This document shows, piece by piece, positions 9,260 to 52,577 of a DNA stretch of 56,162 bases. The notes beneath the pieces were generated by a model. The model was not told the origin of the DNA. It did not search any database and saw only the letters and a list, made by a program, of their open reading frames with translations. The stretch comes from an uncultured Marinoscillum sp. (GTDB lineage Bacteria; Bacteroidota; Bacteroidia; Cytophagales; Cyclobacteriaceae). Location: contig CACLDR010000006.1 in assembly GCA_902605755.1 (NCBI GenBank), forward strand, positions 1-56,162. Reading direction: 5' to 3'. How positions within the stretch are numbered: the first letter of the stretch is position 1; each line of letters begins with the position of its first letter. Both the position numbers and the translations under genes were made by a program.

Positions 9260-10105
9260 CTCTTTTAATCATTTAATTGATATAAATTTAGATTTTAAAT
9301 AAAATAAACTCTTAGAGTCACCACAGAATAAAGACAAATTGATGGGATTAATAGCTTCTATCGTGATTTATTATCATCCTACTGCACTTACCTGATTTTG
9401 ATGCTTTCTCTTCCTCCAAATTTCTTTCCTTTTGTGCTTGTTCTACTATTTTTTACTGTAATAGTTTAACTCAATTACATTTTTATATAAATTATCTTCT
9501 TGACATGTTATCTGTGCGTTTAGCATATTTGTTGCCACTTTTAAGTGTTGGTTTATAATGGCAACGTAATTAGATAATGCTTTTCCCTTTGTTCCTAGAG
9601 TAATATGCTCAGATGACTACAATTGTAATGTGATTTTTTTTTGCATTCTTCATTAAATTCTACATTATAATGTAGGCAAGGTGTTTCTTTATTATTGTAT
9701 ATTCTTAAATTTTGTTCTTCAATAAAGGTTTTTCTTTTTTATAACTATTTAGCGCTATGTTTTCACTTTTTAACTATACCATTATCCAAACTATTACGTT
9801 TACCTATGCCCTTACCAAAACAGAAACCTTTAATCTTACTTAAGCCTCTGATGTGCTCTTCGTAAGGAGCTAAATTATTTTGAGTTCTAGGGCAGCCTTT
9901 GGAGTAAGTGAAGACATCATTCGATTTTGCTATTATATCTTTTTTAACATTGTTATATATAATCAATTTACCTAATACTAACCTTGAACAAAATAAATAT
10001 ATCAAAATTTAATGTGTATTTATATTAGGAAGATAATGAACTCTTTATCATAAAAAAATGTCTTATATCTATCTAAATATTTTATCACTCAAATTAATAA
10101 TATAC
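9260..10105. other. Gap with R4 motif and a decayed gene
   Basis: The R4 motif at 9301-9323 (minus) reads GGTGACTCTAAGAGTTTATT. From about 9770 down to 9400 on the minus strand are linked fragments such as LGTKGKALSNYVAIINQHLKV and ATNMLNAQITCQEDNLYKNVIE across frames. An 80-codon open piece (9763-10005, KGCPRTQNNLAPYEEHIRGL) may belong to the same dead gene. The family is unknown. Confidence 0.4.
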
Positions 10106-10654
10106 ATGAAAAAATTAAAAGTTATTTTTACAGCAATCCTGTCTTTGATATTCGTTTTAAGTGTATTTGCCCAAGGTGAGCACCCCACGAATAAGACTGT
10201 ATCAAATACGATAGTGGATGTTGCAGTCAGCAACAAAGATTTCTCAACCTTGGTTACCACATTGAAAGCTGCTGATCTGGTCAGTGCCTTGCAGGGCAAT
10301 GGTCCTTTTACTGTTTTTGCCCCAACCAATGCTGCTTTCTCTAAAATTGATTCCAAAGTTTTAAGTTCTTTGTTAGAGGAGGGAAACAAAACTAAATTAG
10401 CCAATATCTTGACTTACCATGTTATCGCTAATAAATTAGTCGCAACTGATGTTATTAGCGCATTGGACAAAGGCAACGGCTCGGTAGTATTAACAGCATT
10501 AAATGGTGAAGCTATAACTGTCATGCAAAAAGATGAAAAAATATGGCTGAGGGACTCAAACGATAATTATAGTGAAATTACTGCGACAGATATTATGGCT
10601 GACAACGGTGTTATTCATGTAATAAGCTCAGTTGTTATGCCTAATAGTGATTAA
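10106..10654 (+). CDS. Secreted fasciclin (FAS1) domain protein
   Basis: A 182-residue exported protein. I chose the ATG at 10106 over the upstream in-frame ATG at 10058 because it gives a clean signal peptide (KKLKVIFTAILSLIFVLSVFAQ). One FAS1 domain fills residues about 35-180. The first conserved block is LVSALQGNGPFTVFAPTNAA, followed by LANILTYHVI with the conserved Y-H pair, and the end block GVIHVISSVVMP. FAS1 domains mediate adhesion to surfaces, polysaccharides or other proteins outside the cell. It is a single-gene transcript: a strong hairpin terminator follows 20 bases after the stop. Confidence 0.95.
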   Translation: MKKLKVIFTAILSLIFVLSVFAQGEHPTNKTVSNTIVDVAVSNKDFSTLVTTLKAADLVSALQGNGPFTVFAPTNAAFSKIDSKVLSSLLEEGNKTKLANILTYHVIANKLVATDVISALDKGNGSVVLTALNGEAITVMQKDEKIWLRDSNDNYSEITATDIMADNGVIHVISSVVMPNSD

Positions 10655-20736: not shown

Positions 20737-21093
20737 TTAATACATCAGGGGTTGTTTTGATTTATTTTTCCAACCACTTTGTGATCTATATTTAACAAAG
20801 AATATTTTCAAATCACTTTGACTTTCATAGTCCACAAAATATATCTTTTTATCACTTTGACTCTCATATTTTGTAAAATACCATAATCCCTTATTCCCTT
20901 TACTTTGAGATTCATAATCTACCTTATACACTTTTAAATCACATTGACTTTCATAGTCTACAACATAAACTTTTACATCACTTTGTGATTCATACTTTAC
21001 AGAGAACACTGTCTGAGAGTGACCTGCTATTGGTAGAAATAGGATTATCCATTTCATTCTCCAAAGCCAATGATCGTAATTATCTGTATTCAT
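20737..21093 (-). CDS. DUF6150-type secreted repeat protein (YESQS repeats)
   Basis: A 118-residue exported protein. The more natural start is Met13 (21057), which opens a signal peptide (KWIILFLPIAGHSQ). After it come seven repeats of about 12 residues with the core YESQSDxKVYxVD: VKYESQSDVKVYVVD, VDYESQCDLKVYKV, VDYESQSKGNKGLWYFT, TKYESQSDKKIYFVD, and so on. The alternation of hydrophobic and polar residues with a fixed SQ suggests stacked strands of a beta-solenoid or hairpin ladder. This matches the Bacteroidota DUF6150 type, whose function is unknown. It lies between the nuclease and one of the two decayed membrane-gene copies. Confidence 0.85.
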   Translation of the reverse strand: MNTDNYDHWLWRMKWIILFLPIAGHSQTVFSVKYESQSDVKVYVVDYESQCDLKVYKVDYESQSKGNKGLWYFTKYESQSDKKIYFVDYESQSDLKIFFVKYRSQSGWKNKSKQPLMY

Positions 21094-42386: not shown

Positions 42387-42896
42387 TTATGATGAGAACA
42401 TTGGATTGTTATCAAATTGATTCCTTTGAACGTCATTTCCTGTCTCAATATAATACTTAAAACCTCTTACCACAGAGAGTAAATATTTATTCATATTTGG
42501 AAGAAAGTAGGTTTGTTTAATTAGAGGGACGATACAAGAGGGGTATTTTTTCAAAGCTATTTCAGGGTAAATGTTTAATGATATTTTAAGTTGAGAAACA
42601 TTTTTTTTCAATTTCAAAATTTCCCAAATTACTTTTCCTAGGTTTTGGTTACCTTTTACTATTATCAATTCATAACCTTTACCTTCCCTCCATTCAATGA
42701 AATATCTATTCAAGACTAAATTATTATAATATTTAATCGTATCTCTTGCTCCGACCTTCCCCCATTTCTGACAAGTGTTAGCCTTACAAAATGGATGACT
42801 ATGATTAAGGTTGTTTGGTGATGATATGACCTTCCAAATTTTTTCAGTTGAGCAATTAATGATCACCTCTGAACTTAAAACTGATTTTGTAACCAT
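42387..42896 (-). CDS. SRPBCC (START/Bet v1-like) family protein
   Basis: A 169-residue cytosolic protein. The helix-grip fold is marked by the opening strand SSEVIINCSTEKIWKVISSP with SPNNL, then the HPFCKANTCQKWGKVGARDT loop and the strands RYFIEWREGKGYELIIV. A long C-terminal helix (LPNMNKYLLSVVRGFKYYIE) would close a hydrophobic ligand cavity. SRPBCC proteins bind lipids, polyketides or co-solutes. The RGFKYYIETG phrase is common in the polyketide cyclase/dehydrase branch. Monocistronic, convergent with nothing. Confidence 0.85.
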   Translation of the reverse strand: MVTKSVLSSEVIINCSTEKIWKVISSPNNLNHSHPFCKANTCQKWGKVGARDTIKYYNNLVLNRYFIEWREGKGYELIIVKGNQNLGKVIWEILKLKKNVSQLKISLNIYPEIALKKYPSCIVPLIKQTYFLPNMNKYLLSVVRGFKYYIETGNDVQRNQFDNNPMFSS

Positions 42897-43146: not shown

Positions 43147-43221
43147 ATGTCAAATTATAAATGTAGTTGTGGTAAGACTAAAAATGTTAATGGTAATTGT
43201 GATGGCTCACACAAAAGTTAA
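43147..43221 (+). CDS. CDGSH-like 24-residue peptide
   Basis: A complete short frame MSNYKCSCGKTKNVNGNCDG then SHKS and TAA. It has C-x-C and CDGSH, the ligand set of CDGSH iron-sulfur proteins, but nine residues instead of the usual eight separate the second and third cysteines, and the family's Pro before x-C is missing. A minimal CDGSH unit needs partners to form a dimer, so it may be a free peptide, a zinc ligand, or a remnant. It lies 34 bases ahead of a same-strand gene and could be co-transcribed. Confidence 0.6.
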   Translation: MSNYKCSCGKTKNVNGNCDGSHKS

Positions 43222-43255: not shown

Positions 43256-43513
43256 ATGAATAAAATAGTCAATCAAGACAAGGCTAAATATCAAAGTGAA
43301 TCAAAGCTTTTCGCTTATTACTCTAGGTTCTTCGACAGATTTGTTATCGAAGAATTCAGGAGAAAGCACGATGCTGATACTTCCTTCAAGGGTCACAGGG
43401 CAATGATGCTTGAAATAGAAGCATATGTTCAAAAGGTTACGAGGTACGATAATAAAGCAGACTACTATAATTTAGTCGACACGCTGAAGAGGTTGGCTGA
43501 AAATGATGTTTAG
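43256..43513 (+). CDS. Small helical cytosolic protein, 85 aa
   Basis: Charged, mainly helical (ESKLFAYYSRFFDRFVIEEF, DTSFKGHRAMMLEIEAYVQK, KADYYNLVDTLKRLAE), with no signal peptide or membrane segment. No family is recognised. It is just downstream of the CDGSH-like peptide on the same strand and ends next to the converging DUF4177 gene (stop codons adjacent at 43511-43516). Confidence 0.7.
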   Translation: MNKIVNQDKAKYQSESKLFAYYSRFFDRFVIEEFRRKHDADTSFKGHRAMMLEIEAYVQKVTRYDNKADYYNLVDTLKRLAENDV

Positions 43514-51827: not shown

Positions 51828-52577
51828 ATGAAAACAAAAATTATTAAAAACCTCTTGGGAGCACTGATATTTATTTTTATATCCTGCTCATCAACTCCTG
51901 ATTCGAGTAAAATTGCATCTTTAGCTAAAAGCTGGGTGACCTCATCATATGAAAGTAAGGATGCTGCTTTGAAAATGGTCACGGAAAATATGAGCGATGA
52001 TGGTTATAATGTAGGCGCTCGATATGTTGGAGTTGGATTTAATTACAATTCTGATGTGATGGAAACAGATGGTATGATTGTAACTAACGTAATAAAAGGA
52101 AGTCCAGCATCATCAGTTATTGAAGTTGGCGACAAATTTATCTTAGTAAATGGAGTATTAGTAACAAAAAAATCGACTGAAGATGGAAGTCTGTCTTTTA
52201 GGGGTAAGCCCGGTGTTCCAGTTACTGCAACTGTTTTAAGAGAGGGTGAAGAAATTTCAATTACATTTGAAAGAGGAATTGTAGAACCTACATACTCAAA
52301 ACAACAAATCATCGAAAACATATTGGATGCTGATGCAGATAATTGGAGTGAAAATTCTCGAGGATATGAAATTCGTGAGGTTGTAGCGGATGCATCAAAA
52401 GGAATTGTTTATGTAAAGACCTGGGATAAATTTTTAGATGAGGTTTCAGGACTTGAAGCTGAAGCTCTTACGCTTATAAGATTTGAATTTGACCAAAATG
52501 GTAAAGTTTTAACTGTAGGTAATATGACAGAAAGTGAATTAGTTTTAAGACAAACGGGTTGGTCGATCACACGATAA
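51828..52577 (+). CDS. PDZ-domain lipoprotein
   Basis: A 249-residue lipoprotein (lipobox FISC, Cys20). Residues about 60-155 are a PDZ domain: RYVGVGFNYN (carboxylate-binding loop), TDGMIVTNVIKGSPASSVIE, VGDKFILVNGVLVTKKSTED and ATVLREGEEISITFERG. A C-terminal domain of about 90 residues (about 160-249) has no recognised fold; it contains VVADASKGIVYVKTWDKFLD and ALTLIRFEFDQNGKVLTVG. There is no protease domain, so it is a PDZ adaptor or substrate-binding lipoprotein rather than an HtrA enzyme. A clear terminator follows. Confidence 0.9.
   Translation: MKTKIIKNLLGALIFIFISCSSTPDSSKIASLAKSWVTSSYESKDAALKMVTENMSDDGYNVGARYVGVGFNYNSDVMETDGMIVTNVIKGSPASSVIEVGDKFILVNGVLVTKKSTEDGSLSFRGKPGVPVTATVLREGEEISITFERGIVEPTYSKQQIIENILDADADNWSENSRGYEIREVVADASKGIVYVKTWDKFLDEVSGLEAEALTLIRFEFDQNGKVLTVGNMTESELVLRQTGWSITR

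Follow-up and report, generated by a model that had tools for sequence, protein, structure and literature searches.

The closest described relatives of the short gene studied here are the CISD/NEET proteins (PF09360), for which Lin et al. 2011 (PMC3174974) distinguish seven types. The motif given there reads hydrophobic-C-x-C-x2-(S/T)-x3-P-hydrophobic-C-D-G-(S/T/A)-H, so that eight residues separate the second and third cysteines and a proline stands two positions before the third, and the structures known to that work are beta-sandwiches with an N-strand, a P motif carrying the lid-Pro and a dimer module. The tandem CISD proteins of type 6 (Magnetospirillum MmCISD, human Miner2/CISD3) place two of these eight-residue (x8) motifs in ~80 residues, unlike the single short motif described below. 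A second family enters as a partner, by fusion or adjacency and with a separate fold: YceI (PF04264; TT1927b, E. coli YceI, BcnA). In one open-access library we found no published link between CDGSH and YceI proteins and, judging by titles and abstract openings, no CDGSH protein from a phage.

Results

We examine a 24-residue open reading frame in the window, by which we mean the whole stretch of 56,162 nucleotides that was analysed. The frame, MSNYKCSCGKTKNVNGNCDGSHKS, lies on the forward strand at 43147–43221, with an ATG at 43147 and a TAA stop that ends at 43221, and we refer to it and its homologues as mini-CDGSH. The peptide is laid out as C6-S-C8, nine residues (x9), C18 and then D-G-S-H22, with Gly16 two positions before the third cysteine; C6, C8, C18 and H22 are the candidate ligands. 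The first-pass annotation had described this frame as carrying C-S-C and CDGSH with nine rather than eight residues between the second and third cysteines, without the conserved proline and ahead of another gene, and it was right on every count: coordinates, frame and sequence are correct, the spacing is nine, Gly16 occupies the proline position, and an 85-aa ORF starts 34 nt downstream of the mini-CDGSH stop.

The core motif is C-x-C-G-x-T-x4-G-x-C-D-G-S-H (43162–43212, forward strand), and throughout three mini-CDGSH alignments (A2, A4, A5) C6, C8, G16, C18, D19 and H22 are invariant. An 18-row alignment has C6, C8, G9, T11, G16, C18, D19, G20 and H22 invariant, and the position of the window's T11 is T throughout A2 and A4 and either T or S among the A5 peptides. 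The family as a whole can be written as C-x-C-[mostly G]-x-[TS]-x4-G-x-C-D-[mostly G]-[mostly S]-H in a short frame, a pattern that the window copy matches. The x9 spacing and the missing proline are traits of the whole family and no local damage. The window's own genome (an assembly ~68% complete) holds a single copy.

How far does this peptide belong with the CISD proteins? It keeps their set of three cysteines and one histidine in the order C-x-C...C-D-G-x-H and has a Ser/Thr at the third residue after C-x-C. It departs from them in the nine-residue gap, seen in the window, in 44 bacterial loci and in 84 of 84 viral loci (a uniformity that is partly built in, since the confirming queries were x9 and the bacterial count takes x9 only), and in the glycine, invariant in A2, A4 and A5, that stands where they have proline. 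In addition, the five residues before C6 and the two after H22 leave no room for the N-strand, P motif and dimer module as laid out in Lin et al. 2011. Its sole Pfam match is zf-CDGSH, at E 0.2 and 12.4 bits, below the gathering score of 29.5; among 18 members, 12 match that model at E up to 1 (best E 5.9e-4), and NCBIfam returned no match for the 18. PHROGs gave six families, each from one of 21 members and none convincing (best E 0.018), and when PDB sequences were searched with a profile, the CDGSH chains scored no better than E 0.9 and 3.5. Because it departs from CDGSH domains in spacing, proline, Pfam score and dimer module, we keep mini-CDGSH outside PF09360 and class it as a variant of the CDGSH kind; the family is without a model in the libraries searched.

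Conservation in relatives, on which the first-pass annotation had made its case depend, is clearly present: short x9 frames occur at 44 distinct bacterial loci and on 84 viral contigs. Within the genus, two of ten genomes carry mini-CDGSH, the second being G006 (E 1.1e-7); a further match, in G004, comes from a tandem CDGSH gene of the classic type. A profile search of 390 sampled genomes of the order gave eight matches at E <1e-8, the window's own included; the other seven (E 3e-9 to 4e-14) all come from one other family and from genomes of 1.2–1.6 Mb. Across 395 genomes of the phylum, a narrow three-row profile found the own copy as sole strong match, the next best (E 9.8e-5) lying in an 82-residue frame, so the family is sparse. 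One scan of a species-genome collection returned 18 loci, G006 among them, all titled Bacteroidota; most are flavobacterial MAGs or single cells, and Polaribacter sp. MSW5 is also among them. In the family of this Polaribacter record, 22 of 397 genomes match (E up to 1e-5), with carrier sizes of 1.2–2.7 Mb and 3.6 Mb for Polaribacter itself; the x9 motif is present at 21 of these loci and was not found at that of G998. De-duplication of the bacterial x9 genes leaves the 44 loci, a set that is x9 by selection and omits two further copies from G799. That genome (1.7 Mb, the genome of L087) has three mini-CDGSH matches. Most members seen are free-standing, and their length is mostly 22–45 residues.

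To ask how the gene evolves, we compared the 51-nt core between pairs picked solely by the similarity of the DNA flanking the gene. Eleven independent bacterial pairs differ by 41.5 synonymous and 15.5 non-synonymous changes, with synonymous sites making up ~20%, and the seven closest of the bacterial pairs differ by 13 synonymous changes and none that is non-synonymous. For 25 viral pairs the counts are 88.3 synonymous against 59.7 non-synonymous (synonymous sites 19%). Mini-CDGSH is under strong purifying selection. A terminator-like hairpin follows within 80 nt of the stop at 16 of 44 bacterial loci, as against 28 of 440 random windows; none stands behind the window copy.

Now we consider the neighbours. 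A YceI gene lies directly upstream on the same strand at 22 of the 44 bacterial loci, with 5–36 nt between YceI and the mini-CDGSH ATG where this was measured (~100 nt in L079), and the two are fused at three more (L084, L085, L150). In the fusions the peptide is N-terminal, and what Pfam recognises as YceI is confined to the region after it; L084 and L085 contain no ATG, GTG or TTG between peptide and YceI, and in L150 an internal Met could start YceI separately. At the remaining 19 loci, the window among them, no YceI is seen; for L076 the upstream DNA amounts to just 287 nt. YceI was found neither near the window peptide nor elsewhere in its genome, at the ~68% completeness given above, and it was found in 0 of 84 viral loci. 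Because of these three absences, a mechanism based on YceI leaves some members unexplained.

YceI accompanies 25 of 44 mini-CDGSH loci (22 adjacent, 3 fused) as against 1 of 41 classic x8 loci, and we reject YceI as a general neighbour of CDGSH genes. The single classic x8 locus with YceI belongs to G004, a genome of the window's genus: there a tandem CDGSH gene begins 11 nt past the YceI stop; in G1241, from the window's family, YceI is likewise followed by a tandem CDGSH gene after a 39-nt gap. At both loci, which are 2 of 30 retrieved, the tandem gene stands behind YceI on the same strand, as mini-CDGSH does, and this order means that a classic CISD can take that place in the operon too. 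As an observation in its own right, G004 (L072/L121) and G1241 (L249) present an apparent operon that links type 6 CISD to YceI.

Regulators of two families recur. MarR is found at 12 and HxlR at 5 of the 44 mini-CDGSH loci, both counts being lower bounds since one query was used for each, and at least 17 of the 25 YceI-linked loci have one or the other. A pirin gene follows the fusions L084 and L085, and pirin is also a neighbour at L100 and L132, both without YceI, the former having FMN-reductase and flavodoxin-fold genes as well. An AF2 model of the L085 fusion shows a YceI barrel, which Foldseek matched to polyisoprenoid-binding TT1927b (1wub, E 8e-11) and E. coli YceI, and, at moderate confidence, a helix at residues 32–51 between peptide and barrel. 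The mini-CDGSH part has a pLDDT of ~71, and no CISD is among the Foldseek matches listed for this model (50 of 768). A phage mini-CDGSH modelled alone from 59 aligned sequences gave a low-confidence result (pLDDT 60, pTM 0.22).

The viral members come from two scans of viral contigs, with 46 and 76 loci, that combine to 84 distinct loci in 21 nucleotide clusters. We ran PHROGs on 30 neighbour proteins from 18 of these clusters; four of the proteins had no match. Structural, packaging or lysis families (holin, endolysin, terminase large subunit, tape measure, head protease, head morphogenesis) stand beside mini-CDGSH in 9 of the 18 (L160, L165, L175, L179, L186, L193, L194, L195, L208). In L174 a helicase loader and a single-strand DNA binding protein, which we take to be of the T4 gp59/gp32 type, adjoin the peptide. 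The other tested clusters gave generic matches only (2OG-Fe(II) oxygenase, GroES, ribonucleotide reductase, SSB, NinG, phosphohydrolase), and the neighbours in the L154 cluster had no PHROGs match. Models built from the holins and endolysins confirmed in these loci place a holin in 49 of the 84, spread over 9 of the 21 clusters, and an endolysin in 32 of the 84; the distances listed from holin frame to motif are 12–30 nt in the L160 and L165 clusters and 512–610 nt in the L194 cluster.

Some phage versions are larger. By eye, L159 and L202 have, ahead of the motif, what looks like a membrane helix at the N-terminus together with a stretch rich in Lys/Arg, L180, L188 and L208 have a longer N-terminal part, and in L205–L207 the motif forms the C-terminus of a 222-residue protein. 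A cultured-phage collection (tblastn, four mini-CDGSH queries) and plasmids (one query) gave no convincing match, the best at E 3, in searches whose sensitivity is limited by the short queries and the low-complexity filter.

Returning to the window, we find that the surroundings of its copy differ from those described above. The 85-aa ORF downstream (43256–43513, forward strand) has only a sub-threshold Sigma70_ECF match in Pfam and belongs to a multicopy family of the genus, present in 8 of 10 genus genomes with the own one counted; beyond the genus, 1 of the other 49 genomes has a single weak match with stops. It follows mini-CDGSH only in the window and G006 among the loci searched, and the CDGSH pattern was not found at the other fetched loci of the 85-aa family. 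The first-pass annotation had looked to short homologues with the same neighbour; the homologues are borne out, the shared neighbour weakly, and we reject the 85-aa gene as a functional partner across the family. This gene is possibly mobile or amplifying. Six matches occur in G003, several fragmentary and two with stops.

On the other side lies a divergent SRPBCC-like gene (42387–42896, reverse strand), for which Pfam gives a weak, sub-threshold Polyketide_cyc2 match. In G528 (L079) a homologue 41% identical to it, differently oriented, adjoins mini-CDGSH. A search of the 9 congeners found the gene in none of them; it is present in 6 of 7 small genomes of another family of the order (37–42% identity), beside the peptide in one of these. 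This distribution hints at horizontal acquisition and makes it a candidate for such a transfer.

Discussion

The reading that we favour, and hold to be slightly on the probable side, is that mini-CDGSH is a real family of minimal CDGSH-like x9 proteins, probably with a [2Fe-2S] cluster, that act in the cytoplasm with YceI in redox or electrophile defence and are also carried by phages. Its conservation in Bacteroidota and phages, its position behind YceI in many bacteria and its fusion to YceI are direct observations. The remaining steps are built on motif and context. The three cysteines and one histidine would bind a [2Fe-2S] cluster as in CDGSH/NEET proteins, with zinc as the main alternative, since neither the Thr/Ser nor the CDGSH block has been lost and tandem CISD can fill the same operon slot. 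The peptide would fold around its metal or on a partner, because 24–30 residues leave no room for the beta-sandwich dimer module usual in CISD proteins. A cytoplasmic location is suggested by the YceI fusions, in which the peptide would precede a predicted signal or membrane helix, and by the two phage versions in which it follows an apparent membrane helix and Lys/Arg-rich stretch. From the gene context, mini-CDGSH may be co-expressed with YceI under MarR/HxlR control; regulators and neighbours suggest redox or electrophile stress, and a likely role, drawn from the family names of the neighbours, would be to serve, under quinone/electrophile or oxidative stress, as a labile module for redox or cluster donation. 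In phages it would be a small accessory gene, in many cases close to lysis genes. We put forward more tentatively, and with some doubt, the stronger proposal that these proteins form a separate minimal class of natural Fe-S proteins, ~22–30 residues long with a nine-residue loop of their own, found in Bacteroidota and phages, which would serve in many bacteria as a cytoplasmic redox partner of the YceI lipocalin and in phages during late infection or lysis.

What else could the window frame be? It is very short, below the usual gene-calling length, as a chance ORF might be; the window, read in six frames, contains the strict pattern C.C.{7,10}CDG[STA]H once, against 0 occurrences among 200 first-order Markov sequences of equal length, and together with the wide bacterial and viral conservation and the purifying selection in flank-chosen pairs this leads us to reject chance, whose probability we regard as negligible. 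The metal deserves more thought. A chain of 24–30 residues is too short for the CISD beta-sandwich (PMC3174974), the extra residue and the Gly for Pro alter the loop, and many phage members lie near lysis, head, tail or replication genes and not near redox enzymes, all of which would suit a zinc knuckle, in which the same ligands hold Zn and stabilise a short peptide for contacts with protein or nucleic acid, with no redox role. Against this stand two retained elements that belong to the published [2Fe-2S] motif, the Ser/Thr after CxC and the CDGSH block, and the two genomes of the window's family in which a classic tandem CDGSH takes the place behind YceI; we judge the knuckle unlikely.

A different doubt concerns the genus copy alone. 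While the wider family is functional, this ORF could be a remnant, derived from a phage or from other Bacteroidota, that is decaying or was acquired recently and is functionless now. Only two of ten genus genomes carry the peptide; in G006 there is no in-frame start codon, the nearest ATG being out of frame, Ser21 of CDGSH is changed to Leu and the adjoining 85-aa copy is truncated (this broken frame could be decay or an assembly error); the window copy lacks an adjacent YceI and a terminator-like hairpin; and the distribution of its SRPBCC neighbour is the one given above. Without YceI, with a neighbour restricted to the genus and with the only congener copy startless, the window copy is atypical and may be a relic. 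It nevertheless keeps its ATG, an intact frame and every invariant residue, and its core differs from that of G006 by 5 synonymous changes in 9.3 sites (pS 0.54) and 4 non-synonymous changes in 41.7 sites (pN 0.10), so that we consider loss of function improbable, if a little less so than the zinc knuckle. Finally, with its stop 34 nt before the 85-aa ATG on the same strand, and the same gene order in G006, the peptide might be a Cys-rich leader that senses, say, cysteine or iron and through its translation controls the 85-aa gene. Elsewhere it is often downstream of YceI, fused to YceI or followed by a terminator-like hairpin, and the 85-aa gene follows it in this genus only, among the loci searched; such a regulatory role seems to us very improbable.

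If the stronger proposal of a separate minimal class of Fe-S proteins is true, few genetically encoded iron-sulfur proteins would be as small as mini-CDGSH, which would also be, as far as the literature was searched, the first CDGSH-like protein reported from phages. A 17-residue CDGSH-like core evolving as a gene in its own right would indicate how little chain a natural metal or Fe-S protein needs and would offer a minimal test system for what the CDGSH loop requires, and the fusion would tie the CDGSH and YceI families together. The gene is common to bacteria and uncultured phages, and NCBIfam and PHROGs gave no convincing match for it.

Three other genes of the window drew our attention. 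A PDZ-domain gene at 51828–52577 is 80% identical over 249 aa to one at 1737–2486 of L147, which adjoins the mini-CDGSH of G817, a genome of the Polaribacter family; this is surprisingly close for different orders. A fasciclin-like gene at 10058–10654, 33 kb from the peptide, is 56% identical to a gene of a small-genome relative (L078, L101), where the homologue lies ~0.5 kb from mini-CDGSH. The frame at 20737–21093 encodes a DUF6150 protein with repeated YESQSD-like strands.
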